NCBI GenBank assembly: GCA_026001225.1
Contig: BNZQ01000033.1
Coordinates: forward strand, 1 to 20,971
Source: Clostridia bacterium
GTDB taxonomy: Bacteria > Bacillota > Clostridia > Christensenellales > DUVY01
Direction: 5' to 3'
DNA: 20,971 nt
Part shown: positions 112 through 18,190 of the stretch, one piece after another
Position numbering within the stretch: position 1 is the first letter of the stretch
Layout: every line of letters starts with the position of its first letter
Notes under the pieces: model-generated
The model's database searches: none
The model's input: the letters and a program-made list of their open reading frames with translations, nothing else
What the model was told of the DNA's origin: nothing
Made by a program: the position numbers and the translations under genes

Positions 112-801
112 TCCTATATCGAGGGCGGGCCGTGGAACGACGACGGCATTAAGGCGGTCGCGAAGTTCACGGAGAGAGTGGAAAGGCTGATCAATGCACA
201 ATTAAAGGGAACAGGGAACAGTGGTCAGCGGTCAGCGGTCAGCGGTCAGTTAAAGGCTCAATCCGATCATTGTGAATGGAAGCTGTTCCCGACTCCCGCC
301 GTTGAAACGGCGGAAAGCGCGGAAGTATTGTACGTGTATCACAACACCGTGAAAAGCATGACGGCGGATTTTGAGATATTCTCGTTCAACACGGCCGTGG
401 CGCGGTATATGGAGCTCGTCAACGCGCTGTACAAGTATGACGCGTCGGCGGGAAAGGACGCCGCTTTTCTGAAAGAGCTTTGCCGAAACGCCGTGAAGCT
501 GATCGCGCCCCTCGCCCCCGTTTTGGCGCAAAAATGGTACGGATTGCTGGGGAAGAAGAAGGACGTTTTCAAGGAGGCTTATCCCGAATTCGACGAGAGC
601 CGGTTAAAGCGCGCCGAGACCGAGTACGCGGTGCAGATCAATTCCAAGGTGCGCGCGCGGATTCCGCTGCCGTCGGACGCGGACAGCAAGGCGCTGGAGC
701 GGGCGGCTTTGGACAGCGAAGCGGTTCGGGAATTATTGGGCGAAGCCGCGCCGAAAAAGGTGATCGTAATCCCGGGGCGGCTGATCAATATTATTCTGTA
801 A
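106..801 (+). CDS. leuS: Leucyl-tRNA synthetase, C-terminal part (anticodon-binding and C-terminal domains)
   Basis: Class I aminoacyl-tRNA synthetase that charges tRNA-Leu in the cytoplasm; only the C-terminal third is here. Recognisable pieces are the FGFSYIEGGPWNDDGIKAV segment that follows the KMSKS region in LeuRS, the helical anticodon-binding domain (TADFEIFSFNTAVARYMELV), and the C-terminal domain ending with VQINSKVRARIPLP … KKVIVIPGRLINIIL, a LeuRS hallmark (VQVNGKxRxxI … PGKLVNIV). The frame is open to base 1, but homology starts only near 106; the KMSKS loop expected just upstream is absent and the other strand codes for something else. About 25-30 residues around codons 191-264 come from an inserted heptamer repeat and have no LeuRS counterpart. 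serS follows 36 bases later, probably co-transcribed. ValRS was considered and dismissed because the C-terminal motif is LeuRS-specific. Confidence 0.85.
   Translation, partial: GFSYIEGGPWNDDGIKAVAKFTERVERLINAQLKGTGNSGQRSAVSGQLKAQSDHCEWKLFPTPAVETAESAEVLYVYHNTVKSMTADFEIFSFNTAVARYMELVNALYKYDASAGKDAAFLKELCRNAVKLIAPLAPVLAQKWYGLLGKKKDVFKEAYPEFDESRLKRAETEYAVQINSKVRARIPLPSDADSKALERAALDSEAVRELLGEAAPKKVIVIPGRLINIIL
191..262 (+). repeat. In-frame repeat insertion inside leuS (partial composite element, GGTCAGC x4)
   Basis: Contains TCAATGC-ACAATTA heptamers (191-204) and then four tandem heptamers: GGTCAGC at 223-229, 230-236 and 237-243, and GGTCAGT at 244-250. The same motifs occur in the same order in the copies inside ispDF and between dnaD and dnaC. 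The insertion is read through in frame as …NAQLKGTGNSGQRSAVSGQ…, inside the anticodon-binding domain of LeuRS between the first helix (RVERL) and the next conserved helix (ESAEVLYVYHNTVKS). The ATTCTTC hairpin of the other copies is missing here. Confidence 0.8.
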
Positions 802-8155: not shown

Positions 8156-8164
8156 ACTTTCTTA

Positions 8165-8308
8165 ACTGAAAACTGAAAGATGAAAACTGAAAATGCTTGA
8201 CCTGTCGAAGAAGCGGCTTTTATTATGCCGCAAATTCCTTACCCACCAACAAAGCCGTTCTTACGGTTATTCGACCATGATTTTCAGTTTTCAATTTTCA
8301 GTTTTCAC
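8165..8308 (-). repeat. Dispersed element with GAAAACT borders and two hairpins (copy 2)
   Basis: Homologous to 2095-2230. Left border CTGAAAACTGAAAGATGAAAACTG and its inverse on the right frame a core with GCGGC-TTTTATTAT-GCCGC (8213-8231, perfect five-base stem and nine-base loop) and ACGGT-TATTCG-ACCAT (8263-8278). The loops TTTTATTAT and TATTCG are identical to copy 1, while stem bases change in step. It separates the DUF1538 gene from the PII-like gene, within a run of same-strand genes, and would be transcribed on the minus strand. Confidence 0.82.
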
Positions 8309-8334
8309 TTCATTATTTTTCCTCTTTCACTCGT

Positions 8335-10625: not shown

Positions 10626-12797
10626 TTAGGCGTTCGCGCCGTTACTCGTCTCTTTATTTTTACGGACGCGGCGCGCAACCGTGAACAAGAGGCCGATAAG
10701 AGGCAGCGCCGCGATCATCGCGGCCGTGCCGCCGACGCCGCCGCCAAAGCCCGAACCCGCGCCGCCGATACTGCCGCAGCCCGCCGCGCCGGCGGCGCCC
10801 GTGTCGCCTTTATCGCCTTTATCGCCTTTCGCGCCGGTAGCGCCCTTTTCGCCGTCGGATCCGTCCGTGCCGTTTGTGCCGTCCGTGCCTTTGGCGCCGG
10901 TGTCGCCTTTGTCGCCTTTCGCGCCGTCCGCACCGGTGTCGCCTTTGTCGCCCTTATCGCCGGTCTCGCCTTTATCGCCTTTCGCGCCGGTGTCGCCCTT
11001 ATCGCCGGTCTCGCCTTTATCGCCTTTCGCGCCGGTGTCGCCCTTATCGCCCTTATCGCCGTCCTGACCGTCTTGACCGTCCGCGCCTTGTCTGATCAGG
11101 ATGATGGAAAGCGACTTCACCGCGACGCCGTTCTCGTTCGCCGCATACAGGACAACGTTGAAAATACCGCTCACAGCCGGCGTGCCGCTGATGACGCCGG
11201 TTTCCGCGTTCAGGCTCAAACCCGTCGGCAGGCTGCCGGTCTGTACGCTCCAGCCGACGGCGGCGCCGGCCGCTTCCAGCTGATAGCTGAACGCTTTATT
11301 GATTTCGCCCGTCGCGACGGACTCGGGCGCGGTCGCCGGCGCCGCATCTCCGCGATACAGCGTGAACGTATCGATGACCTCGGACGCCTTGTTGTTCGCG
11401 CCCGTGCGGTAGGTCGTGAACGTCATGGCGTTCGCCGTCACGTCCACCTTTGTGATATTCGGGACGCTCTCCTGATTCTGCTTGGCAACAAACGCGTAAT
11501 CGGTATTTTTGAGCGCGTAGTGCTTGCTGCCCGACGCGGAGTTGCATTCCAAATAGAACGTTTCCCCCGCGCTCTGTTTCGTATAGGAAGACAGCGCCGC
11601 GCCGCCGCCATAGCCCGTCGTAACGGGCGTCATGCCCCGGCCGGTGCCGCTGCCCATCAGCGCGCCGCTCATCATATAGGCGCGCGTGTATACGTGGTCG
11701 TGGCCCGCAAGCACCGCGTCGATGCCCAATCTCGAAAATTCGGGGGAAAGCTCGACCCTGCGGGTGCGGATATCGGTATCGGTGGTGTGCGACGCGCTCG
11801 AATACAAGCCGTGGTGAAAGGTAACGACCTTCCAAAGCGGGCCCGCGCCGCCGTGGGCGGCTTTATACGCCTCAATAGTCTCCTCGATAAACGTCACGTG
11901 CTGCGAGTTGGTCTGGACGTTGCTGTTCAAGCTCATGAACAGCACGCCGTTATAGCTGTACCAGTTGTCGCCGCCGACGTTCGAGCTCACGCCCCGCGTC
12001 GTACTCACGTTGGGCATATTATAATGCTCGTTGTACGTGTTCTGCGTCACGTCGTGATTGCCGATATTGGCGGCCAAGGCGACCTCGCGCAGATAATCGG
12101 GGCTTAAAAACGCCGTGTATTCCGACTCGGACCGCGCGACGTTGTTGTTGCTTTCCACCTGATCGCCCAGCGTGATCATGAAGTCGATCTTATCGCCGAA
12201 CCAATTTTTGGCGTGCGTCAGCGTCTGCTGCCATTTCACCGTGTCGGCATCGATTTTCGTCTGCGAGCCGCCGCCGTCCGCGCCGATCTGCGGATCGCCC
12301 GCCGCCAAGAAGCTGAAACCCTTGCCGTAATCGCCGGTTCTGAACGTATAAATCGCCGACCAGCCCTTGTCCTCGTTGCCCACGCGGTAGATATACGCGG
12401 TGTCGGCGGCCAGTCCGTCTGCGGTCGCGCGGTAGACGCCGAACCCGCTTTGCGCGCTCGACGCCGAAGCGGTGCGCGAGGCGGCAAAGGTTTGATACGT
12501 AACGGGGAAATTCTGCCCGTTGAAGCCGGACGCCAAGGCGACTTGCGCCTCTCCCGCCAAGGCCGATTTACCGTACCAGACCAGGTTGCGCCGGCTCTCG
12601 TCCTCACCGATATTGAGGACGACCTGTTTAACGTCCGGCGAGTCCGTGCCTACGGCGGCGCCCGTCCGCCGGGCCAGCCCGGCGGACGCCGTTATAACGG
12701 CGGTCGCCGTGAGCAGCAAAACGGCGGCGGCGGCAATGAAGCCGATCAGCCTTGTTTTGCCCGTTGCGCGATACCGCGCGAGCGTGTTTTGTTTCAT
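10626..12797 (-). CDS. Secreted purple acid phosphatase-like metallophosphoesterase with Ig-like and collagen-like regions
   Basis: Cell-surface phosphoesterase, 723 residues. Order: signal peptide or anchor (KTRLIGFIAAAAVLLLTATAVITASAG, 14-40); purple acid phosphatase N-terminal beta domain (about 56-155); calcineurin-like core with metal ligands in GDPQ (D168), GDQVE (D212), GNHD (246-249), HH (328-329) and GHDHVYTR (365-372); putative Ig domain (about 484-568, GSLPTGLSLNAETGVISGTP); 34 Gly-X-Y collagen-like triplets rich in GDKGDTGAKG (571-673); Gly-rich linker with CGS; C-terminal membrane helix (TAAMIAALPLIGLLFTVA) and basic tail. There is no LPxTG. The start at 12797 is chosen over 12854 because AAGGAG lies eight bases upstream and it places the signal peptide properly. 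It probably releases phosphate from esters at the cell surface. It follows the yibE/F gene by 115 bases. Confidence 0.93.
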   Translation of the reverse strand: MKQNTLARYRATGKTRLIGFIAAAAVLLLTATAVITASAGLARRTGAAVGTDSPDVKQVVLNIGEDESRRNLVWYGKSALAGEAQVALASGFNGQNFPVTYQTFAASRTASASSAQSGFGVYRATADGLAADTAYIYRVGNEDKGWSAIYTFRTGDYGKGFSFLAAGDPQIGADGGGSQTKIDADTVKWQQTLTHAKNWFGDKIDFMITLGDQVESNNNVARSESEYTAFLSPDYLREVALAANIGNHDVTQNTYNEHYNMPNVSTTRGVSSNVGGDNWYSYNGVLFMSLNSNVQTNSQHVTFIEETIEAYKAAHGGAGPLWKVVTFHHGLYSSASHTTDTDIRTRRVELSPEFSRLGIDAVLAGHDHVYTRAYMMSGALMGSGTGRGMTPVTTGYGGGAALSSYTKQSAGETFYLECNSASGSKHYALKNTDYAFVAKQNQESVPNITKVDVTANAMTFTTYRTGANNKASEVIDTFTLYRGDAAPATAPESVATGEINKAFSYQLEAAGAAVGWSVQTGSLPTGLSLNAETGVISGTPAVSGIFNVVLYAANENGVAVKSLSIILIRQGADGQDGQDGDKGDKGDTGAKGDKGETGDKGDTGAKGDKGETGDKGDKGDTGADGAKGDKGDTGAKGTDGTNGTDGSDGEKGATGAKGDKGDKGDTGAAGAAGCGSIGGAGSGFGGGVGGTAAMIAALPLIGLLFTVARRVRKNKETSNGANA
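10951..11040. repeat. Perfect 45-bp tandem repeat within the collagen-like coding region
   Basis: Bases 10951-10995 recur exactly at 10996-11040, and a third copy begins at 11041. The unit encodes five Gly-X-Y triplets (15 residues), so changes in copy number keep the frame and alter stalk length. The surrounding region repeats GCCTTTATC/GCCTTTCGC-type units less exactly. Confidence 0.93.
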
Positions 12798-15730: not shown

Positions 15731-15854
15731 GTTGCGAGTCGAGAATTGTGCATTGCCCTGCGCCGATGGGGATTCTTCACTCACGGAAGAATGACACGCT
15801 TTATCCTTTACCTGACTACTGACCACTACCTTTTCATTGTGAATTGTAACGCCC
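15731..15854 (-). repeat. Composite REP-like element between dnaD and dnaC
   Basis: Fills the whole gap between the two genes. Read on the minus strand it has ACAATTC-ACAATGA heptamers, GTGGTCAGTAGTCAG, GTAAAGGATAAAGCG, the hairpin ATTCTTC-CGTGAGT-GAAGAAT (plus-strand 15772-15792), and a terminal GCACAATTC. The same order of parts is found at 17334-17450 inside ispDF on the plus strand, so the element occurs in both orientations. Translated on its own minus strand it reads SSQVKDKACHSSVSEESP, nearly identical to the stretch inside IspD. It leaves dnaC with no recognisable ribosome binding site. Confidence 0.88.
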
Positions 15855-16799
15855 ATGAATAAAACGGATTTAATCAACAAAATCATCGCCGGCTACGCGG
15901 CCGATCTGAACGCCCGACGGGCGGCAATCGCCGCGCGCCTGCAGCTTGAACGCGCAAATCCCGATTTCGCCGCAATAGAGCGTACATTGAACGATTTATA
16001 TATTGAACACGCGCGATGCCGTCATTCCGATCTCCTTCCCAAAATCGCTTCCTTGGAAAAGCAATACGCCGACTACTTGAAAACGCACAATATCGACACG
16101 GAAATCAAATACGCCTGTCCGAAATGCAAGGATACCGGTTGGACGGGCGGCGTTCTGTGCGCGTGCGTGCGGCAACGGCTGCACGACGAATTGACGGCGG
16201 CTTCGGGTCTGACCTTCGCGCCGGACGATTTTAAAGACGCGGATATGAACGTTTTTCCCGTCACAATCCGTGAAGAACGCGAAAGACTGTACACTCTCAT
16301 GAAAACCTATTGCCAAAAATTTCCCGACGCGAAATACCGCAATCTGTTTTTCAGCGGCGGCGTCGGATCGGGCAAGACCTTTTTAGCGTCCTGCATGGCA
16401 AACGAAATCCTGCAACGCGGCGAAACCGTTCAGTTTCTGACGGCTTTTACATTCGGCTCGCAGTGCCTGAAAATCCACACCGCCGATCTCGGCGAACGCG
16501 AAGACCTGCTCGCGCCCCTGCTTGATCCCGCGCTGTTGATTTTGGACGACCTCGGAACCGAACCGATTTTAAACAATGTTACCGTCGAATATTTGTACCT
16601 CGTTTTGAACGAACGGTTAACGGCGGGCAAGCACACGATCCTGACGACCAACCTGTCCCCCGCCGACTTCCTCGCCCGTTACGGCAGCCGCGTCTTTTCC
16701 CGCGCTTTGGATCGAAGGAGTACGTATGCCGTGCAGTTTGACGGGCCGGATTTGCGGCTGACGAACGGAAAACGGAAAACGGAAAACGGAAAAATATGA
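15855..16799 (+). CDS. DnaC/DnaI-type helicase loader ATPase
   Basis: 314 residues, cytoplasmic AAA+ protein that loads the replicative helicase. The N-terminal helical region is followed by a zinc-binding cluster C88-x2-C91-x10-C102-x-C104 (YACPKCKDTGWTGGVLCAC), as in DnaI. The ATPase core has Walker A GGVGSGKT (168-175), Walker B LLILDDLGTE (227-236), sensor 1 TTN (264-266) and a SRVFSRAL arginine-finger region (278-285). The last ten residues (TNGKRKTENGKI) are encoded by four CGGAAAA heptamers and so are repeat-derived. The stop overlaps the ispDF start by four bases (ATGA), indicating translational coupling. No Shine-Dalgarno sequence precedes its ATG, which abuts the repeat element. IstB, the transposon relative, is unlikely given the zinc cluster and the dnaD neighbour. 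Confidence 0.88.
   Translation: MNKTDLINKIIAGYAADLNARRAAIAARLQLERANPDFAAIERTLNDLYIEHARCRHSDLLPKIASLEKQYADYLKTHNIDTEIKYACPKCKDTGWTGGVLCACVRQRLHDELTAASGLTFAPDDFKDADMNVFPVTIREERERLYTLMKTYCQKFPDAKYRNLFFSGGVGSGKTFLASCMANEILQRGETVQFLTAFTFGSQCLKIHTADLGEREDLLAPLLDPALLILDDLGTEPILNNVTVEYLYLVLNERLTAGKHTILTTNLSPADFLARYGSRVFSRALDRRSTYAVQFDGPDLRLTNGKRKTENGKI
16766..16793 (+). repeat. Heptamer tandem repeat CGGAAAA x4
   Basis: Four perfect copies at 16766-16772, 16773-16779, 16780-16786 and 16787-16793, encoding the C-terminus of the helicase loader and lying three bases before the ispDF start codon. A gain or loss of one unit (7 bases) would shift the end of dnaC and the spacing to the ispDF start. Confidence 0.95.
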
Positions 16800-18190
16800 A
16801 ACGATACGTTTTATTGATGTGTGCGGGCGCCGGCTCGCGAACGGGCCTGTCCGTCAACAAATTGTTGTATAAGATTCACGATAAAGCCGTCGTCGAATAC
16901 ACGTTGGATAACTTTGCGGCGGCGCGGGCGGATCGCGCGATCGACGAAATCTTTTTGGTTTGCAGCGAGGCCGACCGCAAGGACTTTGAGCGGATCGCGG
17001 AAAAATACCGCGCCCGCCTCTGCTCCGGCGGGAAAACGCGGTCGGAATCCGTGCGGCGCGGCTTATCGTTTTTACGGGGAAAAGGCGCGGCCGACGCCGA
17101 TATCGTTTTGATTTGCGACGGCGCGCGGCCCAACACAAGCCCCGCTTTGATCGCGGCGTGTGCGGCGGCGGCTGAAAAAAGCGGCGGCGCGGTCGCGGCG
17201 TATCCCGTCGCGGACACCCTGCGGGCCGCCGAAAACGGTGTCTTTACCCGCGATATCCCGCGCGAAAACGTCTGCGCCGTGCAAACGCCCCAAGCGTTCC
17301 GATTCGGGGAAATCTGCGCCGCATACAGTAAAATCAATGCACAATGTACAATGCACAATGCACAATGCACAATTAGCGGTCAGTGGTCAGTGGTCAGTGA
17401 CCAGGTAAAGGGTAAAGCGTGTCATTCTTCCGTGAGTGAAGAATCCCCGCCGAATAAAGACAACGTGAATAAAACCGAGAATTGTGCGTTGAACTACACC
17501 GACGACGGCGGCGTCTACGCGGCGACGGGCTATACGGCGGAGTTTGTACCGGGCTCGCCGGACAACTATAAAATCACCCTGCCGGAGGATTTGCAACGGT
17601 TCGAGAGGGAGGTTTTAAACAAGGGACAAGTAAAAGGCAAGGCACAATGCACAATACACAATGCACAATTAAAGGAGTGTCCTTCTTCCGTGAGTGAAGA
17701 ATCCCAACCGAATTTCTCCCGCGTCGGGATCGGTTCCGACACGCACCGCCTCGTTTCCGGCCACCCCTTGATCCTCGGCGGCGTACACGTTCCGCACGAT
17801 AAGGGCTTACTCGGCCACAGCGACGCGGACGTGTTGACGCACGCGATCATGGACGCCCTGTTGTCGGCGGTGGGCCTGCGCGACATCGGTTTTTATTTCC
17901 CCGACGGCGATCCGAAATACAAGGACGCGGACAGCTTGCGGCTTTTGGCGGAGGTTCGAGAAACGCTCGAACGGGCAAATTATAAAATCGGCCATATCTC
18001 GGCTGTGATCTCCGCCGAAAGTCCCCGCCTTTCCCCCTATATCGACGACATGCGCGCCCGATTGGCGGCCGTTTTGGAGATTCAAACTTCGGACATCGGC
18101 ATCGGCGCGAAATCCGGCGAGGGCTTGGGCTTCGTGGGCCGAAAAGAGGGAATCGCCGTTACCGCCTGCGCGACGATCTACGGCAGATGA
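16796..18190 (+). CDS. ispDF: Bifunctional IspD/IspF (MEP-pathway isoprenoid synthesis) with two repeat-derived insertions
   Basis: 464 residues. The IspD half makes CDP-methylerythritol from CTP and MEP; the IspF half cyclises the phosphorylated product to MEcPP; both are cytoplasmic. IspD motifs: CAGAGSRTG (9-17), GGKTRSESVRRGL (78-90), CDGARP (107-112), PVADTLR (137-143), AVQTPQAF (161-168) and, beyond an insertion, YTDDGGVYAATG (234-245) and GSPDNYKITLPEDL (253-266). IspF motifs: GSDTHRL with metal ligands D315 and H317, GHSDADVLTH with H349, DIGFYFPDGDP (363-373), SAESPRLSPYI (407-416), GAKSGEGLGFVGRKEGI (437-453). Residues about 181-233 interrupt IspD, and about 275-306 form the linker; both are read from the composite repeat in the same frame. 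The catalytic motifs are intact, so activity is expected. It overlaps dnaC by four bases. Confidence 0.95.
   Translation: MKRYVLLMCAGAGSRTGLSVNKLLYKIHDKAVVEYTLDNFAAARADRAIDEIFLVCSEADRKDFERIAEKYRARLCSGGKTRSESVRRGLSFLRGKGAADADIVLICDGARPNTSPALIAACAAAAEKSGGAVAAYPVADTLRAAENGVFTRDIPRENVCAVQTPQAFRFGEICAAYSKINAQCTMHNAQCTISGQWSVVSDQVKGKACHSSVSEESPPNKDNVNKTENCALNYTDDGGVYAATGYTAEFVPGSPDNYKITLPEDLQRFEREVLNKGQVKGKAQCTIHNAQLKECPSSVSEESQPNFSRVGIGSDTHRLVSGHPLILGGVHVPHDKGLLGHSDADVLTHAIMDALLSAVGLRDIGFYFPDGDPKYKDADSLRLLAEVRETLERANYKIGHISAVISAESPRLSPYIDDMRARLAAVLEIQTSDIGIGAKSGEGLGFVGRKEGIAVTACATIYGR
17334..17450 (+). repeat. Composite REP-like element inserted in frame within the IspD domain
   Basis: Order of parts: ACAATGC-type heptamers (17334-17375, five or six units), GGTCAGT x3 (17378-17384, 17385-17391, 17392-17398), GTAAAGGGTAAAGCG, hairpin ATTCTTC-CGTGAGT-GAAGAAT (17424-17444), CCCCG. 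Translated as NAQCTMHNAQCTISGQ … KGKACHSSVSEESPP. The gene frame is the only forward frame without a stop: the second frame hits TAA at GTAAAG, the third hits TAG at ATTAGC. It lies between the AVQTPQAF helix and the YTDDGGV segment of IspD. Confidence 0.92.
17643..17706 (+). repeat. Shortened composite element in the IspD-IspF linker
   Basis: ACAATGC-ACAATAC-ACAATGC-ACAATTA heptamers (17644-17671), then GGAGTGTC and the hairpin region CTTCTTC-CGTGAGT-GAAGAAT (17682-17702). The GGTCAGT block is missing. Translated as KGKAQCTIHNAQLKECPSSVSEESQP, in the same frame as the other copy, so it forms the linker joining the two enzymes. Confidence 0.9.

Follow-up and report, generated by a model that had tools for sequence, protein, structure and literature searches.

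In-frame heptamer mosaics inside core genes of a Clostridia bacterium: candidate translated repeat islands and their contents in a sister species

Introduction

What are the two composite repeats that lie within the coding sequence of the essential ispDF gene of this Clostridia bacterium, and in what way does a gene accommodate them? The preliminary description of the locus took them for a REP-like element inserted twice and in frame, saw a parallel in the Rickettsia palindromic elements (RPEs), and suggested that a repeat translatable wherever it lands would be a mobile element tolerated by proteins. The present study follows that proposal from the window, by which we mean the whole stretch of 20,971 nucleotides analyzed, into further stretches of the source genome and into a sister species. 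Patterns detected point, with a probability of roughly 70%, to translated mosaic repeat islands of an RPE-like kind, which are filtered for reading frame and whose contents turn over through concerted evolution inside each genome.

Materials and Methods

The window comprises positions 1 to 20971 of contig C33 (C33:1-20971) in a draft genome of 2.19 Mb, 230 contigs, and 78% completeness, here G000. Two other genomes are referred to by handle: G001, a sister species (searches for relatives yielded no further genome of the genus), and G002, from the same family. The G000 sample consisted of 41 stretches, 28 selected because they contained hits and 13 blind; window included, they amount to 691 kb. 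Modules are denoted A for (ACAATGC)n arrays, Q for (GGTCAGT)n arrays, and H for the hairpin, with two further kinds T and D, and a composite contains at least two module kinds. Host genes with Pfam or PDB support are IspDF, Obg, Dxs, MnmE, Era, a MurG-type glycosyltransferase, MnmA, FeoB, GltB, and a HisH-like amidotransferase; AddA, CoaBC, LeuRS, and other hosts were named by reading translations. Left out of the comparison of sites between G000 and G001 were FeoB, whose match in G001 has 39% identity and resembles a paralogue, and MnmE, MurG, and MnmA, for which no orthologue was seen in G001. The k-mer comparison covered 11 sites and did not include AddA-2, where the G001 site is empty.

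Results

Both composites lie inside ispDF, each with a hairpin core and heptamer arrays, in one open ORF (Table 1) with Pfam matches to IspD (PF01128, residues 5-183) and YgbB (PF02542, residues 309-461). The second composite forms the linker between the two domains, as had been proposed; the first does precede YTDDGGV inside IspD, but it begins past the helix that follows QTPQAF rather than directly after that motif. Most of 15 aligned homologues lacked both inserts, the linker being absent or much shorter in most, while other extra residues occurred at the insert sites in P0002 and P0003 and, in the linker, also in P0006 and P0030. P0003, which comes from another source and is 56% identical to the IspDF of the window, has NAQCTMHNAQLSEKCHSQRSEES in the same linker. 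The ACAATGC pattern was matched nine times in the window against 0.11 expected. The 21-nt hairpin core ATTCTTCCGTGAGTGAAGAAT occurred exactly in insert 1, with one mismatch in insert 2, and as a reverse copy at 15772-15792, with no match in 100 shuffles; throughout G000 it was found in 26 places at up to three mismatches, compared with none for a reversed-pattern control. Just before ispDF, (AACGGAA)n heptamers at 16764-16793 make up the C-terminal tail of a DnaC-like ORF.

Table 1. Features of the window, in window coordinates.
Feature	Coordinates	Strand	Basis
In-frame composite inside LeuRS-like gene at 1-801 (NAQLKGTGNSGQRSAVSGQLK)	185..277 (limits approximate)	+	TRF, composite survey; gene name by reading of translation
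Non-coding composite, hairpin and Q module, between two genes	15734..15846 (limits approximate)	-	Pattern matches
ispDF, fused IspD-IspF gene, carrying both inserts	16796..18190	+	One open ORF, 464 aa
Insert 1, 54 codons, INAQCTM...ENCALN, between EICAAYSK and YTDDGGV of IspD	17333..17494	+	Family alignment
Module A, (ACAATGC)n array, insert 1	17335..17373	+	TRF, pattern search
Module Q, (GGTCAGT)n array, insert 1	17378..17399	+	TRF, pattern search
Module H, hairpin ATTCTTC-N7-GAAGAAT, read HSSVSEES, insert 1	17424..17444	+	Exact core match
Right arm AATTGTGCGTTG, inverse of left ACAATGC arm, insert 1	17480..17491	+	Letters; pairs with left arm in RNA fold, z -2.62
Insert 2, 31 codons, KGQVKGK...SQPN, IspD-IspF linker	17621..17713	+	Family alignment
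Module A, insert 2	17638..17669	+	TRF
Module H, insert 2	17682..17702	+	Core match, one mismatch

The AF2 model of IspDF had a mean pLDDT of 88, with 367 of 464 residues at 90 or above, and values below 50 at residues 202-217 and 223-229 (insert 1) and 282-304 (insert 2), all inside the inserts. Model domains compared with solved IspF and IspD chains gave TM-scores by target of 0.98 and 0.90; full-length IspDF chains gave lower values (0.39-0.50 by query) and pTM was 0.63, so that the placing of the two domains relative to each other is unsure. The preliminary description had asked whether the extra residues form an exposed loop, and the model shows a loop and a linker of low confidence within an otherwise confident protein. 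Insert positions were identified as low-confidence regions of this model and, from PDB homologues of other hosts, as gaps between domain segments.

Similar islands occur in many other genes. In the 41 G000 stretches there were 92 period-7 arrays, compared with a single array at each of periods 5, 6, and 8 and six at period 9, i.e. the dispersed arrays of 7-bp units that characterize heptamer tandem repeats. Composites in the 691 kb were sense-internal in 34 cases and 25 genes (two of these, L087 10686-10741 in minus-strand coordinates and L122 498-513, resemble chance on reading and are still counted), sense-terminal in one, antisense in three (which on reading resemble right arms or weak matches), at a gene edge in two, and intergenic in 15. 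Stretches bearing hits hold 32 of the 34 coding composites, so this figure is not a genome-wide density. Hosts include IspDF, Obg, Era, MnmE, Dxs, MurG, MnmA, GltB, and AddA, many of them housekeeping genes. What had been described as one element inserted twice is instead a mosaic of modules in which one heptamer array can stand in for another. Coding composites L090, L099, L102, L103, and L113 contained an additional module, also in frame, that has a hairpin of the TTCCCCTCCGNCGGAGGGG type and is read approximately AEKFPSxGGVxAERTGWPxNENKTD.

Insert-free homologues were found for every gene so compared. Residues 288 and 345 of Obg flank the adjacent residues 285/286 of 1udx; the two Dxs inserts extend from 297 to 379, positions 20 residues apart in 2o1s, and from 515-520 to approximately 590; MnmE 310 to 349 aligns with 334 to 349 of 1xzp, and Era 96 to 211 with 96 to 115 of 9jkp. 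The G002 homologues of Era, Obg, MurG, MnmA, and MnmE also had no inserts, the longest gap runs being 94, 55, 46, 54, and, where the aligner scattered the gap in MnmE, 17 columns, and 154 kb of G002 stretches contained no period-7 array at a run of at least 11. Among 200 genomes searched with the insert peptide, as the preliminary description had advised, nine including the source genome had matches, 24 in G000, 23 in G001, and one or two in each of the other seven; within what was searched the module set is confined to one genus. In a set of 5.8 billion proteins the insert peptide of the window matched the window's own protein alone, and that of Dxs matched itself, P0122, and P0123. An exact 25-mer around the hairpin had no match in a collection of genome contigs from which the source and near genomes are possibly absent, and a scan of viral contigs gave one distant match to IspD.

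Draft metagenome-assembled genomes invite the suspicion of an assembly or binning artefact, and the Obg contig of G001 (L281) does end inside an ACAATTC-type heptamer at the exact site of the G000 Obg insert, a break suggesting that short-read assembly may lose such islands. An artefact would not account for intact ORFs on many G000 contigs, nor for the same kind of insert in the separately assembled G001 and in P0003 from another source; as a complete explanation it is rejected and barely merits weight.

The term REP-like held for the hairpin module but not for the remainder. There was no match to PF01797 (RAYT/Y1 transposase) in G000, 78% complete, and one in G001, at a contig edge and IS200-like by eye; 12 of the 25 hairpins in the 41 G000 stretches are inside genes. 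As a complete account, a RAYT-driven REP was provisionally rejected, no PF01797 match having been found in the 78%-complete G000. When RNA folds of six coding composites were compared with shuffles, two were more stable (AddA-2, z -5.41; IspD, z -2.62) and the rest ranged from -0.26 to +2.06, so that a palindromic whole is not general, and inverted heptamer arms were present in some coding composites and absent in others. The window had no Rfam match at gathering score, and a known structured RNA was rejected on that basis.

In two intergenic elements of the window, at 2089-2348 and 8164-8314, inverted (AAAACTG)n arms enclose approximately 100 bases of core sequence. Their folds are strong, with z of -7.25 and -8.86, so that coding composites and intergenic elements may have an architecture of inverted heptamer arms in common. 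The first of the two elements is tandemly duplicated with a 104-bp unit, and comparable paired arrays recur in other G000 stretches. Elsewhere in the window, a minus-strand phosphoesterase-like ORF of 742 aa has collagen-like Gly-X-Y repeats of 9 bp (GDKGDTGAKG) at 10767-11117.

Across the module span of either ispDF insert the only stop-free sense frame is that read NAQ...SSVSEES, just as the preliminary description stated, and open antisense frames number none for insert 1 and two for insert 2. Modules in genes had preferred phases, although the counts include chance matches of short motifs: phase 2 for A (42/43), phase 1 for Q (20/20), H (12/12), and D (41/46), and phase 0 for T (11/12). 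Within coding composites phases were uniform (A 33/33, Q 17/17, T 13/13, H 12/12, D 13/13). The number of frames free of stops is two for A, Q, and D, three for T, and one for H, so that for all but H the avoidance of stops is not enough to determine the phase; more than one sense frame was open in nine of the 34 composites. Neighboring module pairs were in register in 57/57 cases in genes versus 4/8 in non-coding DNA (Fisher p 1e-4), and because copies are related by descent, p-values that assume independence are too small and the numbers are to be read as a pattern and not as independent trials. The claim that the repeat stays translatable wherever it lands was too strong, as the phase is privileged and register is lost in half of the non-coding pairs, which suggests that selection or in-frame descent acts as a filter.

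Spacings between modules in genes differ by 21 bases (three heptamers) or by other multiples of three, e.g. T-H spacings of 13 in five cases and 34 in two, and non-coding A-T spacings were 37 and 44, a step of 7. In a motif-free test, non-periodic 16-mers common to at least four genes had a single phase in 41/44 cases in G000 and 9/9 in G001, where those shown belong to a module of that species' own islands, read GHFSLS...PSKENSP and found in one phase in all six places, in five genes and with one place on a blind contig. The G000 16-mer ACGGGCTTTTTTCTTT occurred in four genes (L118, L090, L097, L106) in two phases, 3/4 and 1/4, and three phases were used by a GGTCAGC variant that is nearly periodic. 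A PSKEN peptide resembling that of the G001 islands lies near ACGGGCTTTTTTCTTT in L106 and L097. The stop-bearing heptamer AAAACTG was intergenic in 33 cases, at an edge in three, and in genes in two, there in its open orientation, while AATGCAC occurred 13 times in genes and never outside them.

Register bears on two alternative explanations. If inserts were removed before or during translation, by intron-like splicing or ribosome bypassing, the hairpins inside genes would fit, but stops and frameshifts would then build up freely, and the retention of register in every module pair in genes led us to reject this reading, whose probability is close to nil. Heptamer arrays are also prone to frameshift in principle and could act as phase-variation switches, with slippage turning genes on and off. 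In the related IspD P0030 the linker ends LLNSQFSI and is followed by what resembles, by eye, a shifted frame of the IspF start, from which a frameshift at a heptamer array is possible, as is a sequencing error. Phase variation is nevertheless very improbable, given that spacings in genes change by multiples of three bases alone and that the hosts are housekeeping genes.

Comparison with G001 showed extra residues at 11 of 12 G000 sites in six genes with G001 orthologues: 10 sites had residues of repeat type, one a tandem FTDDGG expansion without heptamers (the counterpart of insert 1 in the IspD loop), and one, AddA-2, was empty. This fraction is biased upward, because the G001 contigs for five of the six genes were picked by insert-peptide match, that for IspDF being picked for IspDF. 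Outside contigs picked in that manner there are two more sites, Era, where G001 has a different insert in the same place, and Obg, where the G001 contig breaks off in a heptamer. CoaBC has an insert in G001 where G000 keeps a short remnant-like stretch. Arrays in G001 were mostly intergenic, with counts for intergenic, edge, and coding positions of 36, 2, and 0 in blind stretches and 126, 9, and 19 in hit-bearing ones.

Contents at shared sites mostly followed the genome and not the gene. Across the 11 filled sites, 8-mer sharing of a G000 insert was 0.139 per pair when the partner was an insert in another G000 gene, 0.058 when it was an insert in a different gene of G001, and 0.043 when it was the orthologous insert, and sharing was higher within the genome than with the orthologue at 10 sites, the remaining one being closer to its orthologue. 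Flanks of 75+75 bp had the opposite pattern (0.009 same genome, 0.008 other genome, 0.184 orthologue, with the orthologue higher at 11/11). From the G001 side, inserts gave 0.097, 0.036, and 0.028 for same genome, other genome, and orthologue, higher within the genome at 11/11. The contrast persists at k = 10 and 12, and a pooled test at k = 12 gave 0.27 within the genome versus 0.08 in the other for G000 and 0.28 versus 0.05 for G001. This would be the expected trace of concerted evolution, or of independent refilling of the same loops. Extra residues with different contents at most of the same sites in the sister genome point to turnover at old sites and not to two fresh insertions.

Discussion

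Patterns in these two genomes are consistent with a set of small modules, comprising hairpins and heptamer arrays that lack stops and terminate in junctions of the TTAAAGG type, having settled in many housekeeping proteins at loop and linker positions, where they would be translated as flexible extra sequence; that they are translated is suggested by their open frames. Purifying selection would then keep solely stop-free changes of 3n bases, so that heptamer copy number in genes would move in threes. The islands may in addition be targets of recombination, so that gene conversion, or template switching at heptamers, would carry modules from one coding copy to another elsewhere in the genome while slippage alters copy number. 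They are probably tolerated rather than useful. A bolder possibility, which we put forward tentatively and at somewhat less than even odds, is that loops of core proteins are lasting landing pads, and that a frame-locked vocabulary of repeats is rewritten genome-wide in each species by a concerted evolution that spans unrelated genes, stamping its own peptides on shared enzymes.

An alternative explanation could be independent transposition, in which a MITE- or REP-like element with a putative transposase repeatedly enters the same permissive loops and in-frame copies survive. This would fit the repeat copies on many contigs, the inverted heptamer arms of some composites and of the intergenic family, and the AddA-2 site filled in G000 and empty in G001, but no target-site duplication or fixed ends were recognized when junctions were read by eye, the composites are variable mosaics, the PF01797 search of G000 found no Y1 transposase, and preferred phases despite two or three open frames would require an added reason. 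We consider it unlikely, though deserving of serious attention. Alternatively, the peptides may regulate, localize, or link their host proteins. The preferred phase of the peptide modules and the retention of most compared sites between two diverged species are what such a function might produce, but the host proteins are functionally unrelated, insert contents differ between the species, and the IspDF inserts are predicted as low-confidence loops, all of which makes selected function improbable.

If translated islands filtered for frame and exchanged within genomes are indeed the explanation, there are several implications. First is that the RPE phenomenon, known from Rickettsia, would also occur in Bacillota, there with repeats of another construction, and would show how selfish or slipping DNA can live within essential genes. 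Secondly, shared sites with exchanged contents make an old question testable, namely whether such inserts spread by transposition or whether coding copies recombine with one another. Such islands may also explain odd repetitive loops of metagenomic proteins, and Obg, Era, Dxs, and IspDF would be natural experiments on loop tolerance.

REP and BIME elements with RAYTs are short hairpins in mosaic arrays, and the present islands share that arrangement. REPs are extragenic, in contrast to the hairpins counted inside genes here, and no RAYT was found in the 78%-complete G000.

The closest parallel, and the one already named in the preliminary description, is with the RPEs, which are repeats within ORFs of unrelated proteins that leave the frame unbroken, occupy solvent-exposed sites, and have orthologues with insertions at the same sites (PMC3767692, PMC10969869). 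The parallel is supported: in-frame translatable repeats are spread over many unrelated genes of essential type, as the 34 composites in 25 genes (approximately two of them doubtful) indicate, and insert-free homologues exist. An RPE is one palindrome of 100-150 bp, whereas the islands here are mosaics of tandem heptamer arrays and hairpins in another phylum. An RPE has a long stem-loop; of six coding composites folded here, two are more stable than shuffles. A further difference from RPEs is that an insert here is closer in content to those elsewhere in its own genome than to its orthologous counterpart.

Translated MITEs of enterobacteria and Neisseria, ERIC/RU-1, YPAL/RU-2, and NEMIS (107 bp), are small repeats whose ORF joins that of the host in frame, and in Neisseria related versions sort between positions inside and outside genes according to whether they carry an ORF (PMC2229807, PMC2759123). 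MITEs have terminal inverted repeats; in the present material inverted heptamer arms occur in some copies. The islands differ in being built of heptamer-array modules and in that a single genome has many of them inserted internally in core enzymes. The heptamer repeats TAACTGA of Beggiatoaceae, GGGAATC of Xanthomonas, and GGGGA(C/T)T of Nostoc are dispersed 7-bp arrays described as mostly intergenic or at protein ends (PMC4679880, PMC4692102), in contrast to arrays that are inside genes, between domain segments, with junctions in a preferred phase. A literature search, with subscription papers mostly outside it, found no report of translated heptamer mosaics within Bacillota core genes and, as the preliminary description had supposed, no earlier description from Clostridia. 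The behavior is of a known kind; what appears to be new is the construction from heptamers, the host, and the replacement of contents at sites that stay fixed.
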